Source of the DNA: Streptococcus ilei
GTDB lineage: Bacteria; Bacillota; Bacilli; Lactobacillales; Streptococcaceae
DNA: 64,000 bases
Reading direction: 5' to 3'
NCBI RefSeq assembly: GCF_000479335.1
Contig: NC_022584.1
Span: 248,001 to 312,000, forward strand
Shown here: positions 16,565 to 45,945 of the stretch, in pieces
Numbering within the stretch: the first letter of the stretch is position 1
How the letters are laid out: each line of letters opens with the position of its first letter
The notes under the pieces: model-generated
Told to the model about the DNA's origin: nothing
Databases searched by the model: none
What the model saw: the letters and a program-made list of their open reading frames with translations, nothing else
Program-made: the position numbers and the translations under genes

Positions 16565-17927
16565 AATTAAAAAAACTGTCAATGCGGATGACTTTTCTTA
16601 TTTCATCCGCTATTTCGGACTCTTTACCTTGATTTTCTCAACCATGACCTTGATTATTATTCAAGTAATGCGGTCAAGTCTGTATACAACGGTTGATGAA
16701 AATTTAAAGATACTGAGTAAAGATCGTTATTCCATCATTAGCTTGGCCAATCGTACCGGAAATGGGATGGGAAGAGACGAACCAGATGATGACCGACCAG
16801 AAGATAATGAACCTGATCCCGAGGATGGCCCTAGACCATCGGTCACTTCCAATAGTACAGCCATCCTCTTGAATGATAATTTTGAAAATGTGACGACGGA
16901 CAATGGTTTTCTGGATTTAAAAACAGTGACCTTTAGTCGCAGCTATTTAAACAAGATCAAGCAGATTCAAATCACCAACCATTATAAGCAAAAAGAAAGC
17001 TACCGGGCTTATTTGGTGGATATTGACCCCGATGATTATATCGATGGGGTGAAATATGCCGTGATCATGACCAATATCAGCCAGTTGGAGCAGACCAGTG
17101 AAAAACACGAGAGCCAAATCGCCTTGGTCATGATTTGCTTCTGGGGCATTTCCCTCTTTGCAAGTATCTTCCTGGCTAAGATGAGTGTGAAACCTCTCTT
17201 AGAGAGCATGAACCGGCAGAAGGCTTTTGTCGAAAATGCTTCTCATGAATTGCGGACACCTTTAGCCGTTTTGCAAAATCGTTTGGAAACCCTGTTCCGA
17301 AAGCCAGAGGCAACAATTATGGAATCCAGTGAGAATATCGCCTCCTCTTTGGATGAGGTTCGCAATATGCGCTTACTGACGACCAATCTCTTAAACTTAG
17401 CCCGTCGAGATGATGGGATTAAACCTGAGTTTTGTGAAATCCCTCCTTCTTTTTTCGACCAAACCTTTGCCAATTATGAAATCATTGCCGAGGAAAATGA
17501 TAAAATCTTCGAGTATGAGAATCATGTCGAAAGGAGTCTGGTGTCTGACAAGGTCCTACTGAAACAGCTGATGACCATTTTGTATGACAATGCCCTCAAA
17601 TACACAGAGGAAGAAGGAAAGATACGGTTTGTCGCCCAATTCAAGGATCGCTATCTCTATCTTCGGGTAGAGGATAATGGACCAGGGATTGCAGACGAAG
17701 ATAAAAAGCGGATATTTGATCGATTCTACCGAGTGGATAAGGCGCGTACGCGTCAAAAGGGTGGTTTTGGTTTAGGACTGTCCTTAGCCAAGCAAATCGT
17801 AGAAGCCTTTAATGGCACCATTACTGTTCGAGATAACAAGCCGAAAGGTGCTATTTTCGAGGTCAAACTAGCAACCAAGTCAGATAGTAAAAAGAAATCA
17901 ACTTCTAAATCAACGAAAAACAAGTAA
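16554..17927 (+). CDS. ciaH: Sensor histidine kinase CiaH with acidic extracellular stretch
   Basis: 457 residues. Two membrane helices, at about residues 20-43 and 187-207, flank an extracellular sensing domain. The kinase core follows: H-box [16 protein letters not shown]-box [16 protein letters not shown] boxes VEDNGPGI and [11 protein letters not shown]. The sensor domain contains an acidic run at about residues 76-96 (repeated DEPDDD and [14 protein letters not shown] groups) that I do not recall in pneumococcal CiaH. Such a patch could bind cations; this is inference. Ends in a Lys/Ser-rich tail. Confidence 0.92.
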
Positions 17928-17970
17928 AGCTGAGGAATCTTTAACTTAGATGAAGCAAAAGACTTCTAAA

Positions 17971-18102
17971 ACTTTCCAAAGGTGAGAAGGGACGTCAGCG
18001 AACTTCTACGAAGTTCCATGACTTAGTTTTGAACCTAAGGTTTCAAAACTCCCTTGTGCTTGAAACATAACTGTTTCAAGCACTTTTCTCACGGCGGAAA
18101 GT
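17971..18102 (+). repeat. Family 1 cloverleaf repeat, copy A
   Basis: This 365-base gap between ciaH and gloA holds no gene. The element begins ACTTTCC and ends GGAAAGT. The outer stem continues with GTGAGAA/TTCTCAC. Inside are three hairpins: GAACTTC-TAC-GAAGTTC, AGTTTTGAA with TTCAAAACT, and GTGCTTGAAAC with GTTTCAAGCAC. A less conserved AT-rich tail runs to about 18200. The 11-bp sequence GCTGAGGAATC lies on both sides of the element (17930s and 18202). Confidence 0.8.
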
Positions 18103-18200
18103 TTCAGAACCTACATGGATGGCGCTCATAATAAGGAGTTGTTCTTATTTTTTAGAATAACTTGGCTTATTTTATATAACATAAGTTTTTCGATAATTTA

Positions 18201-18226
18201 GGCTGAGGAATCCTCAGCTTTTTCAT
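18201..18226 (+). terminator. Terminator-like hairpin after the family 1 copy A
   Basis: GCTGAGG-AAT-CCTCAGC followed by TTTTTC. It was probably the ciaRH terminator before the repeat was inserted, since its left half is duplicated just after ciaH. Confidence 0.6.
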
Positions 18227-18260
18227 CTATTTCAAATAATCGCTATTTTTGCCTGACTAG

Positions 18261-18268
18261 TGTATAAT
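18261..18268 (+). promoter_or_regulatory. gloA promoter -10
   Basis: TGTATAAT 25 bases before the gloA start. No clear -35. Confidence 0.5.
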
Positions 18269-18292
18269 AGTAAAAAAAGAAAGAGGTGTCGT

Positions 18293-18679
18293 ATGGCTTC
18301 AAAAATGTTACACACTTGTTTGCGAGTGGAGAATTTAGAAAAATCAATTGCTTTTTATGCAGATGCGTTTGGCTTTAAGGAATTGCGTCGCAAAGATTTT
18401 CCTGAATACAAATTTACGATTGTTTATCTTGGTTTAGAAGGGGATGACTATGAGTTGGAATTAACTTACAACTATGATCATGGTCCTTACGTCATTGGAG
18501 ATGGCTTTGCCCATGTTGCCTTGAGTACGCCAGACCTTGAAGCCCTTCATGCGGAGCATAAGGAAAAAGGTTACCAAGTAACAGATCCTAAAGGCTTGCC
18601 AGGAACTCTTCCAAACTATTACTTTATTGTGGACCCAGATGGCTACAAAGTCGAAGTGATTCGTGAAAAGTCCTTATAA
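18293..18679 (+). CDS. gloA: Lactoylglutathione lyase / VOC family protein (glyoxalase I)
   Basis: Isomerises the hemithioacetal of methylglyoxal in detoxification. 128 residues with two beta-alpha-beta-beta-beta modules. The metal ligands expected of glyoxalase I are visible: His in LHTCLRVENLEKS, Glu in YELELTYN, His in GFAHVALST and Glu in YKVEVIRE. The ATG at 18293 has AAGAGGTG upstream. Single gene with its own promoter and terminator. Confidence 0.88.
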   Translation: MASKMLHTCLRVENLEKSIAFYADAFGFKELRRKDFPEYKFTIVYLGLEGDDYELELTYNYDHGPYVIGDGFAHVALSTPDLEALHAEHKEKGYQVTDPKGLPGTLPNYYFIVDPDGYKVEVIREKSL

Positions 18680-18704
18680 TCAGCATCATATAACTTGTGA
18701 CAAA

Positions 18705-18735
18705 GAGCAGATGTGACCACATCTGTTCTTTTTTT
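18705..18735 (+). terminator. gloA terminator
   Basis: GAGCAGATGTG pairs with CACATCTGTTC and is followed by seven T. Confidence 0.8.
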
Positions 18736-18858
18736 CTGCTTGAAAGTTGCCGGTTCAAAGTGACAGGAGATAGGACTGAGCTACTTTAATTTCCCTATCA
18801 TATTTTAGGTTTTATTTTCTAGATTCTAGAGTTTTCTACTGTTTTTTGGTGATAAAAT

Positions 18859-18874
18859 TGCTATAATAAGAGTA
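18859..18874 (+). promoter_or_regulatory. pgdA promoter placed for a leaderless mRNA
   Basis: TGCTATAAT (18859-18867) is a perfect extended -10 and lies only 6 bases before the pgdA ATG. The start has no usable SD. Confidence 0.55.
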
Positions 18875-20259
18875 TGAAGAAATCCTACTTGAAAATACTT
18901 ATTCTCATCCTCCTCAACCTCCTTTTTATCGGAGGGATTTATCTTGCTTATCAGAAGATTGAGGAAGCACGCGCTATCAAAAATTATAATCAACAGTTTT
19001 CCAAAGCAATCCAGGAAGAAGAAGCAGTTGAAAAAGACAAAGATACCATTCTTCAAAAAGGAATGGTCGGTCAATCTTATGTTGCTGCCTACTACCCGAA
19101 AAATAACGAAGAACCTATCGCAGTGGTCAAAGAGAGAATTTTGGCTGACGTAGGCTCTCTTCCCCAAGAAGAGAAGAAGAATCAGCAAGCAAAAGAGCTA
19201 TTGTTCTATCATACCGAACGCTCAGAGGACCCATTTGTCGGGGTTCACCCTTATCAGGTGAAGAAGACCCAGTACAAGTGGAAAAACGGTAAGTTCATCA
19301 AAGATGGGATTGACAAACTTCCCCTCCTTTATCTAACGGATGAGGGGACGGTCTTCCAATTCTCCCAATTGTTTACGGATGCTGATTTAGCCAAAGAAAC
19401 CCTCTTAACAGAGTTGCGCTCTCAGCTGGTCTTCCTTCAGTTAGGGGAAGATAGAATTGAAGAGCTGATGCAAACCGTCTCAGCAAGTGATATGGCAAGC
19501 TGGCAGTTCACCTATAATAAAGGTGTGCTGTCCATCACGCTTCCAGTAGATATTGAAGGTATGGAAACTTTTGATGTTCCTCTTTCCAAACTCTATGATG
19601 TGATTGATTCTGCTCGTCTGAATCCTGAAGATCTTCAATCTTATGAGGCCTACCAAACTCAACGTCATGCTAAGATGGTTGCCTTAACATTTGATGATGG
19701 TCCAGATCCAACGACGACCCCTCAAGCCCTAGATATCTTGAACAAGTACCATGTTAAAGCGACTTTCTTTATGCTTGGGAAGAATGTCTCGGCCTATCCT
19801 GAAGTGGCCAAACGGGTACGTCAGGAAGGACATGAAATCGGGATCCATACCTGGAATCACCCTGTCTTAACCAAGTTGCCTTTAGAATCTGCCCAAAAAG
19901 AAATCATGGATACTAAAGAAGTCATTCAAAAGGTCACTGGCGTGCAAACGAAAATTACTCGTCCGCCTTATGGTTCGATTAACAGTGCCATTCAATATGC
20001 GGTAGATCAGGCCTTTATCATGTGGGATGTGGATACTCTGGATTGGAAGACCCACAATACACAAGCTATCTTGGCAGAAGTGAAAAAACAAGTCAAACCA
20101 GGATCGATTATCCTGATGCACGATATCCACCAAACCTCTATCAATGCCCTTCCAGCCGTGATTGAATACCTTCAATCGCAAGGCTACACCATCGTGACGG
20201 TTGATGAACTCTTAAACCACCAAGTGGAAAGTCATCGCCTCTATTACAATCGTAATTAA
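18874..20259 (+). CDS. pgdA: Peptidoglycan N-acetylglucosamine deacetylase
   Basis: Removes acetyl groups from GlcNAc in peptidoglycan, which makes the wall lysozyme resistant. 461 residues: one N-terminal membrane anchor (about residues 8-27), a middle domain, and a NodB deacetylase domain from about residue 265. The catalytic motifs are TFDDGPDP (base and metal Asp), HTWNHP (metal His pair), RPPYGS and LMHDIH. It closely follows the pneumococcal PgdA pattern, including IMWDVDTLDWK. The next genes, a DEAD helicase and a Gfo/Idh protein on the other strand, are pgdA neighbours in pneumococcus too. Confidence 0.92.
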   Translation: MKKSYLKILILILLNLLFIGGIYLAYQKIEEARAIKNYNQQFSKAIQEEEAVEKDKDTILQKGMVGQSYVAAYYPKNNEEPIAVVKERILADVGSLPQEEKKNQQAKELLFYHTERSEDPFVGVHPYQVKKTQYKWKNGKFIKDGIDKLPLLYLTDEGTVFQFSQLFTDADLAKETLLTELRSQLVFLQLGEDRIEELMQTVSASDMASWQFTYNKGVLSITLPVDIEGMETFDVPLSKLYDVIDSARLNPEDLQSYEAYQTQRHAKMVALTFDDGPDPTTTPQALDILNKYHVKATFFMLGKNVSAYPEVAKRVRQEGHEIGIHTWNHPVLTKLPLESAQKEIMDTKEVIQKVTGVQTKITRPPYGSINSAIQYAVDQAFIMWDVDTLDWKTHNTQAILAEVKKQVKPGSIILMHDIHQTSINALPAVIEYLQSQGYTIVTVDELLNHQVESHRLYYNRN

Positions 20260-20263
20260 AAAG

Positions 20264-20287
20264 ATCGTTCGTAGTATTACGAACGAT
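20264..20287 (+). terminator. Hairpin after pgdA
   Basis: ATCGTTCGTA-gtat-TACGAACGAT, a perfect 10-bp stem, but with no T-tract after it. A near-identical stem (ATCGTTCGT/ACGAACGAT) recurs at 20538-20567, on the other side of the family 1 repeat. Confidence 0.55.
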
Positions 20288-20316
20288 TCAGATTTAAGAT
20301 AAAGTAATTAAAAATA

Positions 20317-20448
20317 ACTTTCCTTAGGTGAGTACGGACGTCAGCGAACTTCGTAGAAGTTCCATGACTAATTATTGAGCCTAAGGTCTCAATAATTCCG
20401 TGTGCCTGAAACTATTGTGTTTCAGGCACTTTTCTCACAGCGGAAAGT
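20317..20448 (+). repeat. Family 1 cloverleaf repeat, copy B
   Basis: Exactly the length of copy A (132 bases). Same outer stem (ACTTTCC/GGAAAGT) and same first hairpin (GAACTTC-GTA-GAAGTTC). The second arm reads AATTATTGAG/CTCAATAATT and the third GTGCCTGAAAC/GTTTCAGGCAC. Both differ from copy A on both strands of the stem, so pairing is kept. An AT-rich tail reaches about 20535. No gene lies in 20260-20571. Confidence 0.8.
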
Positions 20449-20537
20449 TTTTTCATCTTCTTAAACGACTATAAATATAAGTCATTTTTTGAAAATCATC
20501 CAGCTGTTTTATGTAAAACAATAGTTTGTCTATATTA

Positions 20538-20567
20538 AAAATCGTTCGTAATGCAACGAACGATTTT
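20538..20567 (-). terminator. Terminator of the helicase gene
   Basis: AAAATCGTTCGT pairs with ACGAACGATTTT around six bases. It is symmetrical, so it works in either direction. Confidence 0.7.
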
Positions 20568-20571
20568 CTTA

Positions 20572-21657
20572 TTATTCCCCTATATAAAGTTGCGCTCCTT
20601 TGAGAATCAAGGGACGTACAGGGGTTAATTTTTTCAAACTTTTCAATTCTTCTGGATGGCTAACTAAGGTGATAACATAGCCCTCTTTGCCCATGCGTCC
20701 GGTACGCCCAGATCGGTGGATGTAGGTTTCGGCATCTCGAGGGACTTCATAGTTGACGACACATTCTAGGGAGTCGATATCAATTCCTCGTGCCACCAAA
20801 TCGGTTGCCAGAAGGAGTGTCAACTGGTGGTCCTTAAAGCGTTCCAGAATGACTTTACGGAACTTGACATTAACGTCACTAGCAAGTGAGACGGCACTAA
20901 CTTCCCGGTATTGGAGTTTTTCTTCGGCGCTTCCCAGGTCTGACAAGCTGTTGAAGAAAACGAGCCCACGAAAGTCTTCGACATTGGAGAGTTTTCTGAG
21001 GAGTTCGACTTTTTCTCGCTTATCCACTTCCATATAGAAGTGCTGGATATTGTCTAAGTTTTGTCCTTCCACTTGAATGGTTAGGGTATTGGGTTCGATT
21101 TGTTCTGGATCAAACTTGGTCGTTGCACTCATATAGATAAATTGATGATCACGGGGCGCGTAGTGGCAGATCTTATCGACAAAGTGGTACTGAGAGTCGC
21201 TAAAGAGTTGGTCAAATTCATCTAGGATGATGGTATCGACATTCATCATCTTGATTTTCTTTAACTTGATCAATTCAAAAATACGGCCAGGAGTTCCAAT
21301 GAGAATTTCGGGCCCCTTTTTGAGGCGTTCGATTTGCCGTTTTTGACTTGAGCCAGAGAGGAAAAGTTGGGCACTGAGTCCTAGAGGTTCCGCCCATTGT
21401 TTGGCAACCTCAAAGATTTGTCCTGCCAACTCTGTGTTGGGAGAGAGGATCAACAATTGTTGCGCTTTTTTAGGTTTTAGTTTGAGAAGACTAGGGAAGA
21501 GATAGGCCAAAGTCTTTCCGGTTCCTGTCGGGCTGACTCCAAGCACGTTCTCCCCTTGGGTAATAGGTTCAAAGAGGCGTTCTTGGATTTCAGTAAGTTG
21601 CTCAAATCCGAGGGTTTGAAGTTGCTCTTGCCAGAGCAGTGGAAATGCTAGTGTCAT
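20572..21657 (-). CDS. DEAD-box RNA helicase
   Basis: ATP-dependent RNA unwinding protein, 361 residues, made of the two RecA domains with almost no extension. Q-motif region LTEIQERLFEPI, motif I SPTGTGKT, motif II DEFD (a DEAD variant), motif III SAT, motif V ATDLVARGIDI and motif VI HRSGRTGRMG. The ATG at 21657 is one base after the stop of the upstream oxidoreductase gene, with AAGGA as SD. The longer frame to 21690 would overlap that gene. Confidence 0.88.
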   Translation of the reverse strand: MTLAFPLLWQEQLQTLGFEQLTEIQERLFEPITQGENVLGVSPTGTGKTLAYLFPSLLKLKPKKAQQLLILSPNTELAGQIFEVAKQWAEPLGLSAQLFLSGSSQKRQIERLKKGPEILIGTPGRIFELIKLKKIKMMNVDTIILDEFDQLFSDSQYHFVDKICHYAPRDHQFIYMSATTKFDPEQIEPNTLTIQVEGQNLDNIQHFYMEVDKREKVELLRKLSNVEDFRGLVFFNSLSDLGSAEEKLQYREVSAVSLASDVNVKFRKVILERFKDHQLTLLLATDLVARGIDIDSLECVVNYEVPRDAETYIHRSGRTGRMGKEGYVITLVSHPEELKSLKKLTPVRPLILKGAQLYIGE

Positions 21658-21658
21658 A

Positions 21659-22636
21659 TTAGTTTTCGTCCTTAAAGTGTATTCCAGCATCTTGGCGCAT
21701 AGCGTAGAGGGTTTGGTGAACCATCTGTCCAGTTTGGAGCCAAGTCTGGTAAAGAGTCGGATTGCCTTCTGCCATCATGCTAGCAAAGGCCTGGGCTTCT
21801 TCTAGCATGTTATGAGAGGCAGGAGTGATGGGGAGCTGGTAGCTGTTTCCAGAATGGTCTTGAAAAAGAGCCTGGCTAACGGCTTCGATCCCACTAATGA
21901 AGAGGGTGCCGTCTGTTGTATAGATTTCAGCAGGTAGATTACTGGTCACATCTTTGCCGGCTTGAATGCCAATGACAAAGTCAGAATAAACCAAGCTACC
22001 ATGTCCGTTCAAATCGATTGAATTAGGCAATTGCCGTGCCTGATAGGTTACTGATTCAGGTTGACCAAAGAGGCCGATGGCAAAGTAGAGAGGATAGACT
22101 CCCAAATCCATGAGGGCTCCACCCGCAAACTGGTCGGAGAAAATATTGGGAGTATTCCCTTTCAAGAGCTCGGGCATCTTAGAAGAGTATTTGGCATAGG
22201 TCATATGGCCGCCCAAGACGGTCTTGTCTTTGAGAAAGTCTTGGATGGTCGCAAAGGCTTTTTCATGATAGTTGCGAGCAGCTTCAAAGAGATAGACCTG
22301 GTGTTCGTTAGCCAATTTGACCAGTTCTTTCCATTCCTTAGGAGTGGTGACAGCCGGTTTTTCAAGGATGACATGTTTCTTAGCCAAGAGGGCTAATTTA
22401 GCCTGAGGATAATGAAGCGAATTGGGACTAGCAATGTAGATAACATCCAGGTCACTATCTAAAAAGGCAATCAGGTCATCATAGAGAGCCACTTGTCCAT
22501 AAGGTTGAGAGAAGCTACGAGCTTTCTCCAAGGTTCGTGAATAGACCGCACTTAACTCATATTGGTCAGTTTTGTTAGCTGCGTCTAGAAAGGAATGGGA
22601 AATGGCACTGGTGCCGATGATACCGAGTTTTAGCAT
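21659..22636 (-). CDS. Gfo/Idh/MocA family oxidoreductase
   Basis: NAD(P)-dependent dehydrogenase of sugars or related compounds, 325 residues. The N-terminal Rossmann fold begins LKLGIIGTSAISHSF. The signature EKPAVTTPKEW follows the fifth strand. The second domain contains GGALMDLGVYPLYFA. The substrate is not predictable. The ATG at 22636 has a strong SD AAAGGAG. Forms an operon with the DEAD helicase, in the order also known from pneumococcus. Confidence 0.85.
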   Translation of the reverse strand: MLKLGIIGTSAISHSFLDAANKTDQYELSAVYSRTLEKARSFSQPYGQVALYDDLIAFLDSDLDVIYIASPNSLHYPQAKLALLAKKHVILEKPAVTTPKEWKELVKLANEHQVYLFEAARNYHEKAFATIQDFLKDKTVLGGHMTYAKYSSKMPELLKGNTPNIFSDQFAGGALMDLGVYPLYFAIGLFGQPESVTYQARQLPNSIDLNGHGSLVYSDFVIGIQAGKDVTSNLPAEIYTTDGTLFISGIEAVSQALFQDHSGNSYQLPITPASHNMLEEAQAFASMMAEGNPTLYQTWLQTGQMVHQTLYAMRQDAGIHFKDEN

Positions 22637-22844
22637 AGAAGCTCCTTTCAATCAAGTGTTTACTGGTTTCATTATATCATGTTTCATCCTAAAAAGATGG
22701 AATGGGCCTTTCTAACTGGGGTAGCAGGAGGAAAGGATGTTTACTTGACTTGTGGATGGAAATCCATAGAAAAATGGTTCAAGTCGTGGTCAAGAGGTTG
22801 CTTTTGTGATAGAATAAATAGGATTATAGAAAATGGAGAAGAAG

Positions 22845-23480
22845 ATGCGAAACAGACCAATTATTATCGGTGTAACAGGTGGTTCTGGTGGGGGGAAAAC
22901 CAGTGTTTCTCGTGCAATTTTATCCCACTTCCCAGATGAAAAGATTGCTATGATTGAACACGACTCTTATTATAAGGATCAAAGCCATTTAACCTTTGAA
23001 GAGCGGATTCAGACCAACTACGACCATCCCTTTGCCTTTGATACCGATCTCATGATCGAGCAAATCAATGAGTTGTTGGCTGGCCGTCCAGTGGATATCC
23101 CAACTTACGACTACGCAGCGCATACGCGTAGCGCTAAGACTTATCGCCAGGAGCCTCAGGATGTTTTTATCGTTGAGGGGATTTTGGTCTTGGAGGACAA
23201 GCGTCTTCGTGACTTGATGGATATCAAGATTTTTGTTGATACCGATGATGATGTGCGGATCATTCGCCGGATTAAGCGGGATATGGAAGAGCGTGGTCGG
23301 AGTTTGGACAGTGTCATCGATCAGTACTTAGGAGTGGTGAAACCGATGTACCACCAGTTCATCGAGCCAACCAAGCGCTATGCGGATGTCATCATTCCAG
23401 AAGGTGTGACCAATACCGTAGCCATTGATTTGATTACGACCAAGATTGAAAAGATCTTGAGCGAATCACGTGAAGGATAA
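22845..23480 (+). CDS. udk: Uridine/cytidine kinase
   Basis: Phosphorylates uridine and cytidine in pyrimidine salvage. P-loop [12 protein letters not shown] at residues 8-19, substrate-site EHDSYYKD and [11 protein letters not shown], lid region [15 protein letters not shown]. 211 residues. The ATG at 22845 ([13 protein letters not shown]) has GGAGAAG as SD; the ATG at 22833 lies before the SD. An extended -10 TGATAGAAT is about 30 bases upstream. Confidence 0.94.
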
Positions 23481-23490
23481 GATAACAAGT

Positions 23491-23527
23491 GAGAGAGGTT
23501 AGGAAGTAGTGTCCCAGCCTCTTTTCC
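23491..23527 (+). terminator. Weak terminator after udk
   Basis: GAGAGGTTAGGA pairs imperfectly with TCCCAGCCTC and is followed by TTTT. Confidence 0.45.
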
Positions 23528-23546
23528 ATGACAAATAGGGAGAAAT

Positions 23547-24218
23547 ATGAAAAAGTTAAGAAGGGAGTTTCACTCCAGAAGTAAGGCCTTTGCCTGCCTA
23601 TTGACCATGTGTGCAGGCTTTTCAGATGCCTACACCTTTATCGAAAGAGGAGGGACCTTGGCCGCGGGCCAAACTGGGAACGTGGTCTTTCTATCCGTTG
23701 GGTTAATTGGCCATGAAATCGCGGATGTGGAGGTCAAACTAGCAACCATGTTGGCCTTTATGATCGGGATTTTCTTGATGACCGTCTTTCAACGCTTCTT
23801 TAGCCATTCCGTTTGGCGACTCAGTACCTTGGTTCCCTTGGTTTTGACGACCTTGGTGGCTGGCTTTCTGCCAAAAGAAGTGCCCAATGTTTTGATTGTA
23901 CCTTTCTTTGGGCTGAGCCTAGGAATTGTAGCCATTTCCTTTGGAGAAGTCGATAGCTATGCTTATAACCATTCCTTTATGACAGGGAATCTCAAGAAGA
24001 CCATGGTCGCTTACGGGAATTTTGTGCGGGATCGCAAGATGGAGTTTTTCTGGGAGTCTCTCTTTATGACTTCTTTGATTGGGAGCTTTGTGGGAGGAGC
24101 TATTCTTTCCACCTTCCTCATCCAATATTACGGCCTTCGGACCATCTGGTTTGTTTCCCTTGTTCTGACCCTCTTTCTCTCTTACCGGGCGATTCAATAT
24201 GTTCGAAGGGATATCTAG
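23547..24218 (+). CDS. YoaK family membrane protein (DUF1275)
   Basis: A 223-residue integral membrane protein with six likely helices. Typical DUF1275 pieces are FSDAYTFIERGGTLAAGQTGNVVFL near the N-terminus and YNHSFMTGNLKKTM in the middle. The family is found beside many unrelated genes and has no established substrate. Ends with a clear terminator. Confidence 0.82.
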   Translation: MKKLRREFHSRSKAFACLLTMCAGFSDAYTFIERGGTLAAGQTGNVVFLSVGLIGHEIADVEVKLATMLAFMIGIFLMTVFQRFFSHSVWRLSTLVPLVLTTLVAGFLPKEVPNVLIVPFFGLSLGIVAISFGEVDSYAYNHSFMTGNLKKTMVAYGNFVRDRKMEFFWESLFMTSLIGSFVGGAILSTFLIQYYGLRTIWFVSLVLTLFLSYRAIQYVRRDI

Positions 24219-24243
24219 TCAAATTCAAATAGTTTGATCAATC

Positions 24244-24271
24244 AGTCAGGGAGCAAAATCCCTGACTTTTT
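24244..24271 (+). terminator. Terminator after the YoaK gene
   Basis: AGTCAGGGA-gcaaaa-TCCCTGACT followed by TTTT. Confidence 0.8.
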
Positions 24272-24363
24272 AATTGGGAATATTTGCTTGATAGTTCTGA
24301 TGGCAAGCTGGGTTGTTATCGAAGGTTGCTCCGTTGTAAATACTTAATTTTCTAACTAAAGTT

Positions 24364-24380
24364 TGGTATAATAAAGGTTA
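24364..24380 (+). promoter_or_regulatory. Extended -10 placed for a leaderless GAF-protein mRNA
   Basis: TGGTATAAT (24364-24372) is 7 bases before the ATG at 24380. AAAGG lies only 2 bases before the ATG, too close for normal SD use. Confidence 0.5.
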
Positions 24381-24877
24381 TGAATACGCAAGAAAAAGAA
24401 TCAAATTATAAACTCTTACTATCCCAGTTAGAAGCTCTTTTAGAAGGAGAGAGCAATGCCTTGGCCAATTTATCCAATGCCAGTGCTTTGCTCAATCAAG
24501 CCCTACCACATTCGGTCTTTGCAGGTTTTTATCTTTATGATCAAAAAGAGCTGATTTTAGGCCCCTTTCAAGGTCAGGTTTCCTGTGTCCACATTGCCTT
24601 AGGAAAAGGTGTTTGTGGAGAAGCAGCAGAGAAAAGAGAGACGCTGGTAATTGAGGATGTGACCCAGCATGCCAATTATATCTCTTGTGACAGTCGGGCC
24701 ATGAGTGAGATTGTGGTTCCCATGGTCTTGAATGACCAGTTACTGGGTGTGTTGGATTTAGATTCGGATCGGGTGGGAGATTATGACGATCTAGATCGCC
24801 TTTATTTGGAACGTTTTGTAGCTATCTTGCTTGAAAAAATGAATTGGAATTTTAGGATGTTTGGAGTAGTAAACTAA
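24380..24877 (+). CDS. GAF domain free methionine-(R)-sulfoxide reductase
   Basis: Repairs free methionine-R-sulfoxide. A 165-residue single GAF domain with three cysteines at the places used for catalysis and resolution in the fRMsr family: [17 protein letters not shown] and [11 protein letters not shown]. The Glu and Asp of EIVVPM and LDLDSD line the pocket. Its stop overlaps the dnaX start (TAATG), so the pair is translationally coupled; this GAF-dnaX pairing is common in streptococci. Confidence 0.85.
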
Positions 24878-26553
24878 TGTATCAAGCCCTCTATCGTAAA
24901 TACCGAAGCCAGACCTTTGGCCAGCTTGTAGGGCAGGAGGTTATTGCGACGACCCTACGACAAGCTGTCGAACAGGGAAAAATTAGCCATGCCTATCTCT
25001 TTTCTGGCCCTCGTGGGACAGGGAAGACCAGTGTGGCAAAAATCTTTGCCAAGGCCATGAACTGCCCCAATCAAACAGGGGGAGAGCCTTGTAACGAATG
25101 TTATATCTGTGAAGCCATTACCAATGGCAGTTTAGAGGATGTCATCGAGATTGACGCCGCCTCTAATAATGGGGTAGATGAGATCCGTGATATCCGCGAT
25201 AAATCCACCTATGCGCCTAGCCTGGCCCCTCATAAGGTCTATATCATTGACGAGGTCCACATGCTCTCGACGGGAGCCTTTAACGCCCTTCTCAAGACCT
25301 TGGAAGAACCGACAGAAAATGTGGTCTTTATTTTAGCGACAACGGAATTGCATAAGATTCCAGCAACCATCCTTTCGCGGGTTCAACGTTTTGAGTTCAA
25401 ATCCATCAAGACGCCAGCCATTCAAGACCACCTAAAAGCTGTTTTGGAGAAAGAAGGGATTGATTACGAAGAAGAAGCTGTAGCCATTATTGCCCGTCGG
25501 GCAGAAGGTGGGATGCGGGATGCTTTGTCCATTTTGGACCAGGCCCTCAGCCTGACAGCTGGTGCCCAATTGACCACTGAGATGGCAGAAGAAATTACAG
25601 GCTCCATTAGTCAAGAAGCTTTAGATCTCTATGTTACAGCCTTGTCAGCACAAGATGCAACAGCTGCCTTGGACCAGTTGAACCTGATCTTTGATAATGG
25701 GAAAAACATGGCCCGCTTTGTGACGGACCTCTTGCAGTATTTACGGAATCTCTTGATCGTTCAGACAGGTGGGGAAAATCTCCATGTCAGTGAGCGATTT
25801 AATCAGAATCTAGCCATACCGCAAGCAACCCTCTTTGCTTGGATTGATCTTGCGACAAGGAGTTTAGCGGATATCAAAAACAGCCTGCAGCCGAAAATCT
25901 ATACGGAGATGATGACCATTCGTTTGGCAGAATACAAGGGTGAGGGCCCTTCGGCTAGCCAAGTGGCTCTTCCAGCAGATTTTTCAGCACAAGTAGATCA
26001 GCTCAAAAGAGAAGTCGAGTCTCTGAAGAATCAGTTAGCTCAAGTAGCGAGTGGGGCTCCTGCAGCTAAATCAAGCCCTACTCGTCCTCAGAAGTCTAGC
26101 AAGGGCTATCGAGTGGACCGCAATAAGCTTCAAGCTATCTTACAAGAAGCAGTTGAAAATCCAGATTTAGCCCGTAACAATCTCATTCGCCTACAGAATG
26201 CTTGGGGGGAAATTATTGAAAGCCTAGCAGGGGCAGATAGGGCTTTACTGGTTGGTTCACAGCCGGTTGCGGCCAATGAACGCCATGCGATTTTAGCTTT
26301 TGAGTCTGACTTTAATGCCGAACAGACCATGAAGCGAGATAACCTCAATACCATGTTTGGCAATATTTTAAGCAATGCGGCAGGTTTCTCTCCGGAGATT
26401 CTGGCTATTTCAATGGAGGAATGGACCCAGGTTCGGGCGGAATTCTCTAAGAAAGCTCGTGGTCACAAGGAAGAGGCAGAAGTGGCAGAAGAGTCAGTCA
26501 TTCCGGAGGGCTTCGATTTCCTCTCTGATAAAATTACCGTTCAGGAAGACTAG
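24877..26553 (+). CDS. dnaX: DNA polymerase III subunits gamma/tau
   Basis: Clamp-loader ATPase. Walker A GPRGTGKTS, a zinc module with Cys in CPNQTGGEPCNECYIC, Walker B IIDEVHM and sensor LATTELHKIP lie in the first 180 residues. A collar domain and a variable C-terminal tau-like region with a coiled-coil stretch (VDQLKREVESLKNQL) follow. Length 558. No obvious slippery heptamer for a programmed frameshift was spotted, so only one product is predicted. Confidence 0.94.
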   Translation: MYQALYRKYRSQTFGQLVGQEVIATTLRQAVEQGKISHAYLFSGPRGTGKTSVAKIFAKAMNCPNQTGGEPCNECYICEAITNGSLEDVIEIDAASNNGVDEIRDIRDKSTYAPSLAPHKVYIIDEVHMLSTGAFNALLKTLEEPTENVVFILATTELHKIPATILSRVQRFEFKSIKTPAIQDHLKAVLEKEGIDYEEEAVAIIARRAEGGMRDALSILDQALSLTAGAQLTTEMAEEITGSISQEALDLYVTALSAQDATAALDQLNLIFDNGKNMARFVTDLLQYLRNLLIVQTGGENLHVSERFNQNLAIPQATLFAWIDLATRSLADIKNSLQPKIYTEMMTIRLAEYKGEGPSASQVALPADFSAQVDQLKREVESLKNQLAQVASGAPAAKSSPTRPQKSSKGYRVDRNKLQAILQEAVENPDLARNNLIRLQNAWGEIIESLAGADRALLVGSQPVAANERHAILAFESDFNAEQTMKRDNLNTMFGNILSNAAGFSPEILAISMEEWTQVRAEFSKKARGHKEEAEVAEESVIPEGFDFLSDKITVQED

Positions 26554-26576
26554 GATGTGCTTTTTCCAGAAAATCA

Positions 26577-26592
26577 TGGTAGAATAACAATA
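26577..26592 (+). promoter_or_regulatory. Extended -10 placed for a leaderless small-protein mRNA
   Basis: TGGTAGAAT (26577-26585) ends 6 bases before the ATG at 26592, just after the dnaX stop. Confidence 0.45.
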
Positions 26593-26804
26593 TGAATAAA
26601 CGTCAATTTTGGACTATGGCTATCTTTACAGCCTTAGAAACCTATTTTTTTAATGATGCTGTGATGAGAGAAAGCTACCTGGCAGCTATCTTTTGGGCTC
26701 TTTTGATATTGAGAAATTTACAAGTCAGCTATATCTTAGGAAAGTTGGTCGAAAGTATCGATCAACAGCTTAATCAGAAAAAACGAGATAAGTATAAAAA
26801 ATAA
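26592..26804 (+). CDS. Small membrane protein, unknown function
   Basis: 70 residues. Two hydrophobic stretches (FWTMAIFTALETYFF and YLAAIFWALLILRNL) are followed by a Lys-rich cytoplasmic tail. It resembles the small DUF3272-type proteins often encoded after dnaX in streptococci, from memory. No SD; an extended -10 lies directly upstream. Followed by a hairpin. Confidence 0.65.
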   Translation: MNKRQFWTMAIFTALETYFFNDAVMRESYLAAIFWALLILRNLQVSYILGKLVESIDQQLNQKKRDKYKK

Positions 26805-26829
26805 GCACCGACTGGTGCTTATTTTATTT
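26802..26829 (+). terminator. Terminator after the small membrane protein
   Basis: AAGCACC-gac-TGGTGCTTATTTTATTTT: stem AAGCACC with GGTGCTT and a T-rich end. Confidence 0.7.
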
Positions 26830-26856
26830 TAAATAAAATATAAAGTCTACTTAAAA

Positions 26857-27038
26857 ACTTTCCTTAGGTGAGTACGGACGTCAGCGAACTTCGAAGAAGT
26901 TCCATGACTTAGTTTTGGACCCCTTCGCTTTTATATTTCTAGGCTTAGGCTAAAACAGTTCCCCGAACTGTTTTACTCCCAAAACTCCCGAGTGCTTGAA
27001 ACAAAAGCGTTTCAAGCACTTTTCCCACAGCGGAAAGT
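26857..27038 (+). repeat. Family 1 cloverleaf repeat, copy C (with enlarged middle arm)
   Basis: Same boundaries and outer stem as copies A and B, but 182 bases long. The middle arm (AGTTTTGG with CCAAAACT) carries about 50 additional bases, including an extra hairpin TAAAACAGTTC-ccc-GAACTGTTTTA. The third arm is GTGCTTGAAAC-aaaagc-GTTTCAAGCAC. The AT-rich tail to about 27130 resembles that of copy B (CATTTTTT, TTTATGTAA, TTTGTCT in the same order). Confidence 0.8.
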
Positions 27039-27527
27039 TTTAGATTTACTTAACGAATTCAAAAAATAGCCGTCATTTTTTTGAAGAGTCAGCTGACTAC
27101 TTTATGTAATTAGGAATTTGTCTGCTTTCTAAAAAAAGGACTTAGTCCTGTGCAATACAGAACTAAATCCTTTGTGTAAATGAATGGTCTAACTTTTTTG
27201 GCTCAGTACACACCAGGTGTGTTTTCTTTATGCATACAATTCTTAAATTTTTAAGCACCTTAAGTATATCATGGTGCTATCTAAAAAGTTAATTTTATAC
27301 AGTTTACTAGCATAGTTGATTAGTTTTTGTTTACCCTTCCAACTTTATTATTATATCATAAAAATGATTAGAAAAACAGACTTGAATTTTTTTGAAATTG
27401 GTATACGATTAAGGTATAAAAACTATTAAAATAGCCTGTTAGAAAGGGGATTAAAAGAATTAATAAGGCTATATATAATTGTTGATTGGTATCTAATGTT
27501 GTAAAACAAGAAAGGGTAACGTAAAAA
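27039..27527. other. AT-rich intergenic stretch with hairpins, no supported gene
   Basis: After the repeat tail come three inverted repeats. They are AAAGGACTTAGTCCTGT with its complement (27137-27175), CACACC-a-GGTGTG plus TTTTC (about 27208-27226), and AGCACC...GGTGCT (27255-27280). A 24-codon ATG frame at 27180 has no SD. A small RNA is possible but nothing proves it. Confidence 0.4.
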
Positions 27528-45418: not shown

Positions 45419-45430
45419 TCAATCATAATA

Positions 45431-45569
45431 GAGAGAGTGGGACAGAAATCGGTCATTCGTTAGAATTCGATTTCGTCGTCCCACCTCCGCACAGTTGAGT
45501 AGGGCTGTAAAAGCTGATGAAATCAGCGTAGTAGAGCCCACTCAACCACTGCGTCTTGCTCGACAATCC
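45431..45569 (+). repeat. Family 2 nested-hairpin repeat, copy 1
   Basis: Begins AGAGAGTGGGACAG and ends CTCGACAATCC. Two structured halves: GTGGGACAGAAATCG...CGATTTC..GTCCCAC, and GTTGAGT-GGGCT...AGCCC-ACTCAAC enclosing GCTGAT-gaa-ATCAGC. Unlike the other three copies it lacks the terminator hairpin at its end and joins directly to a family 1 fragment. Confidence 0.85.
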
Positions 45570-45945
45570 GCTGTGAGAAAAGTGTTTGAAACATGATTGT
45601 TTCAAACACTCGGGAGTTTTAAGACTATAAATTAAAAAGCGAAGTGGCTTAAAACTAATTGAACACGGGCTGCGGACCGTGTCAAAAGCGCAAAATACAT
45701 TAGTACTAAATCCAAGACACAGTAGCTGATTGAATTCTTCTCTCACCTTTTAGCTCGGAAGAATCCTAATTAGCCTTGTGGGGGCAGGACAACGAAGCAA
45801 TCCTATACAACAGTGCTTCTGTCCAGCTCCCTATTTTGACTTTATCCGCAGACGCCCTTTGTATCTTGATTTAGTCATGGAACTTCCTGGATTGCTGAAA
45901 TCATCCACTGGATAATTTCACCTAACGTCCGTCCTCAAGGTCGTC
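45567..45945 (-). repeat. Family 1 repeat (copy D, minus strand) split by a family 3 element
   Basis: CCGCTGTGAGAAAAG with AGTGTTTGAAAC/GTTTCAAACACT and GTTTTAAG/CTTAAAAC (45567-45656) is the reverse complement of the family 1 right half. TAGTCATGGAACTTC ... ACGTCCGTCCTCA (about 45871-45936) is its left half. The 215 bases between begin AATTGAACACGGG and end CCCTTTGTATC, the reversed ends of the family 3 element at 36 kb. No gene is seen in 45419-46123 beyond these pieces. Confidence 0.65.

Follow-up and report, generated by a model that had tools for sequence, protein, structure and literature searches.

A cloverleaf repeat of Streptococcus carried by a miniature transposon with IS1182-family ends and found at terminators and at fixed operon sites

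The 64,000-nucleotide (nt) stretch of the Streptococcus ilei genome analysed here (the window) carries a repeat whose core, a cloverleaf of 115-140 nt, lies inside a unit of about 250 nt. The repeats in the window are copies of a miniature, non-autonomous transposon with IS1182-family ends, and the terminal sequences indicate that an IS1182-family transposase probably moved it. Taking all results together, we consider it fairly likely that an IS1182-type miniature transposon residing at terminators carries the cloverleaf, which also serves as an RNA leader at fixed positions in operons. A preliminary description of the window had recognized the cloverleaf, its covariation and its modularity, all of which stand. 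It had not noticed the surrounding unit with its IS1182-family ends, nor that terminators are duplicated and that some operon positions are fixed.

Many copies are flanked by the same hairpin on both sides. We compared the left and right flanks of 78 copies (25 from the same genome as the window and 53 named), of which 70 remained after identical copies had been removed. In 24 of the 70, the two flanks aligned with a score above the 99th percentile of the mismatched controls, a conservative test because orthologous sites are among these controls. What is duplicated is a complete terminator hairpin, found mostly about 27 nt 5' of the ACTTTCC end of the core and 80-104 nt 3' of its GGAAAGT end. 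Duplication of a whole hairpin predicts transposon ends beside the hairpins, and elements of the IS1182 family have such ends. The ends of the unit, CAGATTGAAGAYAAAG ... GTTTGTCTACATTC, are those of streptococcal IS1182-family insertion sequences (ISs): with at most 5 of 18 mismatches the left end was present in 43 of the 70 copies (0 of 700 shuffled), with at most 3 of 14 the right end was present in 32 (3 of 700 shuffled), and 25 copies had both. Matches to the IS1182-family domain PF13751 occur in 52 of 98 streptococcal genomes, and most of the 30 IS1182-family loci that we read have ATTGAAGACAAAGT...AGTTTGTCTTCAAT-like limits. Hairpin duplication above control was seen in 13 of the 24 IS1182 elements for which both ends could be located; in 12 of these 13, 20-29 nt are duplicated, flush with CAG...CTG (e.g., loci L213 and L223), and at the IS1182 element L232 the duplication spans only 11 nt. 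The repeat therefore resembles a miniature inverted-repeat transposable element (MITE) in that it has terminal inverted repeats in common with IS1182-family ISs, uses and duplicates the same target (24/70 repeat and 13/24 IS copies) and is, with its short distance between ends, too small to hold a transposase. The IS1182 family, to which staphylococcal IS1272 also belongs, targets hairpins (PMC4923244, PMC5678879), and its streptococcal members have the terminal repeats seen here. For IS1272 the same sources describe deletion or replacement of the hairpin with no duplication, whereas here the hairpin is duplicated whole, which corresponds to pathway b, drawn as possible in the part of PMC5678879 available to us.

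Comparison with related genomes showed the unit to be mobile at two of its sites in the window. Site A lies between a histidine kinase gene and a glyoxalase gene, and the element is absent there in five relatives: genome G024 carries a hairpin stretch of 60 nt, and in G158, G192, G163 and G155 the site is taken by another repeat family. By their coordinates, the matches to the two flanks of site A are only 4-25 nt apart in a further twelve, more distant genomes. At site B, between genes for a PgdA-type deacetylase and a DEAD-box helicase, the element is flanked on both sides by one and the same terminator hairpin of 26 nt in G155, G158 and G192, in the orientation of the window in G155 and reversed in G158 and G192; G163 has another repeat, and the more distant G030 a single unrelated terminator (L236). 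We also observed that a second repeat family (GAGAGTGGGACAGAAATCGG ... CCCAGCCTCTTTT) occupies these same terminator sites in relatives (L358, L384, L385, L387, L388) in place of the element, and that its G155 form (L388) includes a stretch resembling pneumococcal boxB (CTCAAAGCACTGCTTTGAGGTGGCGGATAGAACT).

The paired changes in the fold exceed what chance would give. Copies A, B and C share ACTTTCC...GGAAAGT ends, a second stem (GGTGAG/CTCAC) and three hairpins, just as first drawn, and their minimum-energy folds give the cloverleaf on either strand, with arm 2 altered by a long insert in copy C. Clustering gave 41 sequences, of which nine were removed as plainly non-copies or repeats of others, and the 32 diverse copies thus picked by hand formed alignment A1. 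From A1, the architecture comprises the outer stem, the second stem of GGTGAG/CTCAC type, a short CGG/CCG stem around arms 1 and 2 (columns 25-27 paired with 90-92 of the alignment), which is new to the drawing, and arm 3. Standard pairs fill 91.0% of the 1437 cells of its 46 pairs, compared with a mean of 70.7% after shuffling, and a double change is found in 40 of the 46. The covariation score is 0.527 (0.169 shuffled). None of 500 shuffles reached any of these three values, so the paired arm changes noticed between the window copies are real; slid alignments likewise fell below the observed pairing and double-change values. Since the sequence limits in A1 were set by outer-stem complementarity, the outer stem is favoured, and so is arm 2, because many copies were found via an exact arm-2 pattern; neither choice favours the second stem, arm 1 or arm 3. 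For the same reason the near-invariance of arm 2 (TTGAGCCTAAGGTCTCAA) in A1 overstates its conservation. Covariation is clearest in arm 1 (GTCA/TGAC, GGTA/TACC, GCCA/TGGC, GCTA/TAGC, GGAA/TTCC and GCAA/TTGC), where the pairs adjoin an internal loop whose GC is invariant in A1. About 95-96% of all cloverleaf pairs are Watson-Crick. A further candidate, a loop-junction pairing of arm-2 CCUAAGG with CCUUAGG past the outer stem, was rejected as its changes are unmatched by eye (e.g., L047 and L087 in A1).

With a covariance model, R1, built partly from copies A and B, four copies were found in the window (A, B and C on the plus strand, D on the minus strand), and the expectation that such a search would reveal further copies was borne out: of 197 Streptococcus genomes, 177 have a match with E no higher than 1e-4. 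The search scored at most 16 candidates per genome, so copy numbers are at least those counted. Across the order, 27 of 198 genomes match, namely 26 of Streptococcus and G314 of one other genus, which gave 57 matches when more candidates were scored. Among named records outside Streptococcus, Granulicatella elegans ATCC 700633 has copies in L117, L137, L143, L152 and L158; in L137, L143 and L152 several cloverleafs lie within a few hundred bases, in tandem or inverted.

Beyond terminators, the cloverleaf recurs at fixed sites within operons. The best match in 30 low-copy genomes (29 Streptococcus and G314) lies before rmlB in 17, purE in three, parC in three, dnaK in two and elsewhere in five. 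In nine further genomes, for which 61 places were read in addition to L047 and L052 from an earlier reading, the grpE-dnaK, purD-purE and yqeH-yqeI sites were occupied in all nine, infB-rbfA in seven, glyQ-glyS in five and lpdA-lplA in two. The start codon follows the fold within a narrow range, 12-47 nt for 51 of 56 copies across the six named sense sites: 19-32 nt at rmlB (17/17), 34-47 nt at dnaK (11/11), 12-26 nt at purE (10/12, the other two at 137 and 231 nt), 16-25 nt at yqeI (8/8) and 28-33 nt at glyS (5/5), with parC as the exception (111-182 nt, three copies). All 17 rmlB copies have rmlC upstream, directly in five and with a 161-amino-acid reading frame between in 12. In a fuzzy test of the 61 places, none of the operon-site copies had both transposon ends and five had one. 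At the fixed sites a further hairpin of the type GCGAGCGAAGCGAGC is often seen just 5' of the fold on the strand modelled by Rfam as SSRC8 (L276, L309, L329, L335, L338 and others). Judging by their first residues, the gene after L050 is probably that of S14 (rpsN) and the gene after L046 probably that of an oxidoreductase.

At these fixed sites the fold is kept by compensatory changes. Removal of identical copies reduced the three site alignments from 17 to 16, 20 to 16 and 16 to 15 sequences; because these alignments follow the model and contain related rows, the shuffle figures are not probabilities. The 16 distinct rmlB sequences have a double change in 25 pairs (2 of 500 shuffles as high) and a covariation score of 0.462, compared with 0.168 after shuffling, which none of 500 shuffles reached. 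Scores were likewise above all 500 shuffles for purE (15 sequences, 21 double-change pairs, 0.225 vs 0.073) and dnaK (16 sequences, 13 double-change pairs, 0.171 vs 0.061).

The element is in part already known, as an Rfam small RNA (sRNA) on the opposite strand. RF02616 (SSRC8_2, a 281-nt model) describes the same sequence, in the reverse of the strand on which the repeat was first drawn, and matches L012 (73.7 bits) and L046 (78.5 bits) over its full length. Two of nine loci thus reach the gathering score of 72, and all nine match at E 0.01 or better, seven of them partially. With Rfam gathering scores as the threshold, nothing in the window matches, and a search at those scores alone would have missed the relation. 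A match to an element already described, which was to count against the preliminary reading, has thus been found in part. Three programs predicted SSRC8 in Streptococcus pyogenes MGAS315, and Northern blot and circular rapid amplification of cDNA ends (RACE) detected it; the part of that account available to us describes it from one locus as an sRNA and mentions neither a family of repeats nor transposon ends, duplicated terminators or a position in operons (PMC3675131).

At six of the eight named fixed sites it is the SSRC8 strand that lies in the mRNA, and we asked which strand the wobble pairs favour. In 174 unique copies, read on the first-drawn strand opposite SSRC8, there are 84 G.T and 119 A.C pairs (p 0.017), and 16 tRNAs in the same loci have 26 G.T and no A.C, although the tRNA finder disfavours mismatches. 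When each event at the sense sites is counted once, omitting the reversed palindrome row of L322, 66 G.U stand against 33 A.C in the mRNA strand (p 0.001); at sites of opposite orientation the events number 5 and 7. These counts lean toward RNA on the SSRC8 strand, far more weakly than in tRNA, and a share of constraint at the DNA level, or use of both strands, may contribute. A tRNA-like single-strand RNA gene was rejected as an explanation, the wobbles being too symmetric.

Joining these results, we propose that an IS1182-type transposase would join the element to both feet of an intrinsic-terminator hairpin. The stagger would be the hairpin itself, and repair would leave a complete terminator on each side, so that both neighbours keep one; insertion would therefore be harmless and copies could accumulate. 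The cloverleaf would act at the RNA level, in most cases as the SSRC8 strand. It would form a compact leader at the 5' side that transcription can pass and that shields the mRNA of the following cistron or determines how this mRNA is processed, perhaps with a cut at the foot of the fold. At the fixed sites the cloverleaf is probably such a structured mRNA leader, a role that the narrow spacing to start codons fits.

Several results weigh against this proposal. Duplication above control is missing in 46 of the 70 repeat copies and in 11 of the 24 IS1182 elements, and the side hairpins of copy C are unlike each other. The reversed copies at site B may be inversions in place rather than new insertions. 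The autonomous partner expected of a MITE in the same genome is lacking, in that PF13751 has no match in G000 (the genome of the window), G024 or G030, and the copies in these genomes therefore look like leftovers. The lack of an autonomous partner is usual for relic elements. At rmlB the further pair types number 45, compared with 46.1 after shuffling, and 375 of 500 shuffles are as high. Finally, cloverleaf wobbles are far more symmetric between the strands than those of tRNA, and at infB-rbfA and lpdA-lplA it is the opposite strand that lies in the mRNA, which rules out that the SSRC8 strand is always the one transcribed.

Some of these points would be expected if the repeat were purely parasitic DNA, its fold mattering only as DNA, for transposition or in a single-stranded or cruciform state, and its operon copies being old insertions never removed. 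The nearly universal Watson-Crick pairing, the almost strand-symmetric wobbles and the presence of both orientations in operons agree with this, as do the mobile copies between duplicated terminators, where little read-through is expected. Yet the spacing to the start codon is fixed at five of the six sense sites, covariation continues within one site long after insertion, the operon-site copies with both transposon ends number 0 of 61, and the wobbles counted at the sense sites favour the mRNA strand; we regard a purely parasitic nature as unlikely, though it is the strongest of the rivals. The high Watson-Crick share is also what template switching during replication would yield, since by perfecting quasi-palindromes it would produce paired changes without selection. 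We think such an artefact improbable, given that the pairs flanking the internal loop of arm 1 change but the loop remains unpaired and keeps its GC, that the second stem covaries like the short hairpins although its strands are about 100 nt apart, and that arm lengths and arm order are kept across the genus. No more probable to us is a family of trans-acting sRNA genes, as the description of SSRC8 would have it. The match to RF02616 and the Northern and RACE result for SSRC8, as far as PMC3675131 is available to us, speak for such genes, but the dnaK, purE, rmlB, yqeI and glyS copies lie inside operons near start codons, and the wobbles are distributed differently from those of single-strand RNA genes such as tRNA. 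The leader carried by a miniature transposon remains the reading that we favour.

The repeat was also compared with known repeats of streptococci. The available text of PMC3049150 treats the BOX, RUP and SPRITE repeats of pneumococcus and two BOX-type families in Streptococcus suis. By that account pneumococcal BOX is, like the cloverleaf repeat, modular, mobile, structured and intergenic (PMC3049150), and CGTCAGC occurs in both; its sequence and ends differ. The suggestion that the repeat is modular but distinct from BOX held, in that modules were seen and the one BOX element tested with R1 scored 1.9 bits (E 1.9), by which BOX was rejected as the same family. A second BOX element lies in L176. 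The ends reported for RUP resemble IS630-Spn1 (PMC3049150, available part), unlike the IS1182-like ends found here. The S. suis boxE and boxF could be relatives, a likeness of length and description: their summed length of 115 + 133 nt comes close to the roughly 250 nt of our element, and extra modules occur between the ends (PMC3049150, available part). In the open-access literature, judged mostly from listings, we found no description of the repeat, its IS1182 link or its operon sites.

The features of the window are collected in the table below. The two halves of copy D are separated by other sequence; the second repeat family named above, at about 45420-45570 and 45700-45870 of the window, interrupts this copy. 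The greater length of copy C is due to a module of about 50 nt within arm 2, which was also noted in arm 2 of L031, L035 and L045. This hairpin module (AAAACAGT...ACTGTTTT) occurs either inside arm 2, as in these four copies, or beside the element, as downstream of L043 and L058. The whole genome (1.99 Mb, one contig) gave 39 BLAST places, or about 35 loci once three half-pairs were joined and one palindromic match was discounted; the flank of one of them, L015, is also present in Streptococcus australis (L083) and Streptococcus sp. bf_0095 (L078). In this genome we also saw a stretch of 2.1-4.4 kb in three distant copies that are 100% identical (L067 4576-8947, L068 4531-8902 and L069 4518-6569), each with one diverged cloverleaf copy.

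Table. Copies of the cloverleaf repeat in the window, with the associated units, modules and terminator hairpins
Feature	Position	Strand	Evidence
Copy A, cloverleaf core	17971..18102	+	Sequence, covariation set, R1 match 17968-18105
Copy A, entire mobile unit, approximate limits (degenerate ends)	17948..18198	+	Flank repeat D9 and flank alignment; site empty in five relatives
Truncated terminator copy GCTGAGGAATC, left of copy A	17926..17939	+	Flank repeat D9
Intact terminator copy, right of copy A	18199..18221	+	Flank repeat D9
Copy B, cloverleaf core	20317..20448	+	Sequence, covariation set, R1 match 20314-20451
Copy B, entire mobile unit (CAGATTTAAGATAAAG ... GTTTGTCTATATTAA)	20289..20539	+	Flank alignment, comparison with relatives
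Terminator hairpin duplicate, left of copy B	20260..20288	+	Flank repeat D6, flank alignment, relatives
Terminator hairpin duplicate, right of copy B	20537..20565	+	Flank repeat D6; first bases overlap the unit end given above
Copy C, cloverleaf core, longer arm 2	26857..27038	+	Sequence, R1 match 26854-27041
Module inserted in arm 2 of copy C, approximate limits; own hairpin AAAACAGTT..AACTGTTTT	26921..26977	+	Minimum-energy fold
Copy C, entire mobile unit, approximate limits	26827..27131	+	Flank score 7.3, within controls
Split copy D, arm 3 and arm 2 part	45560..45699	-	R1 match 34.9 bits
Split copy D, altered arm-1 part	~45871-45934	-	Same altered arm 1 in L074, L095

A bolder extension, which we put forward tentatively and hold to be somewhat short of an even chance, is that the cloverleaf represents a class of mRNA leader not described before, which was kept over much of Streptococcus history ahead of the housekeeping genes rmlB, dnaK, purE, glyS, yqeI and rbfA. 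There it would set the expression of neighbouring cistrons unequally and could do so from either strand, and an IS1182-type transposon would have taken it up and carried it into terminators, which were duplicated in the process. If true, one structure would be both a regulatory RNA and the cargo of a mobile element. The results join three apparently separate things, an Rfam sRNA, a genus-wide repeat and the IS1182 transposons, and they provide natural cases of a transposon duplicating an entire terminator hairpin, a pathway drawn only as a possibility in the available part of PMC5678879. The structured element just before dnaK, purE, rmlB, glyS and yqeI also fills a gap left in these genomes by gene-only annotation.

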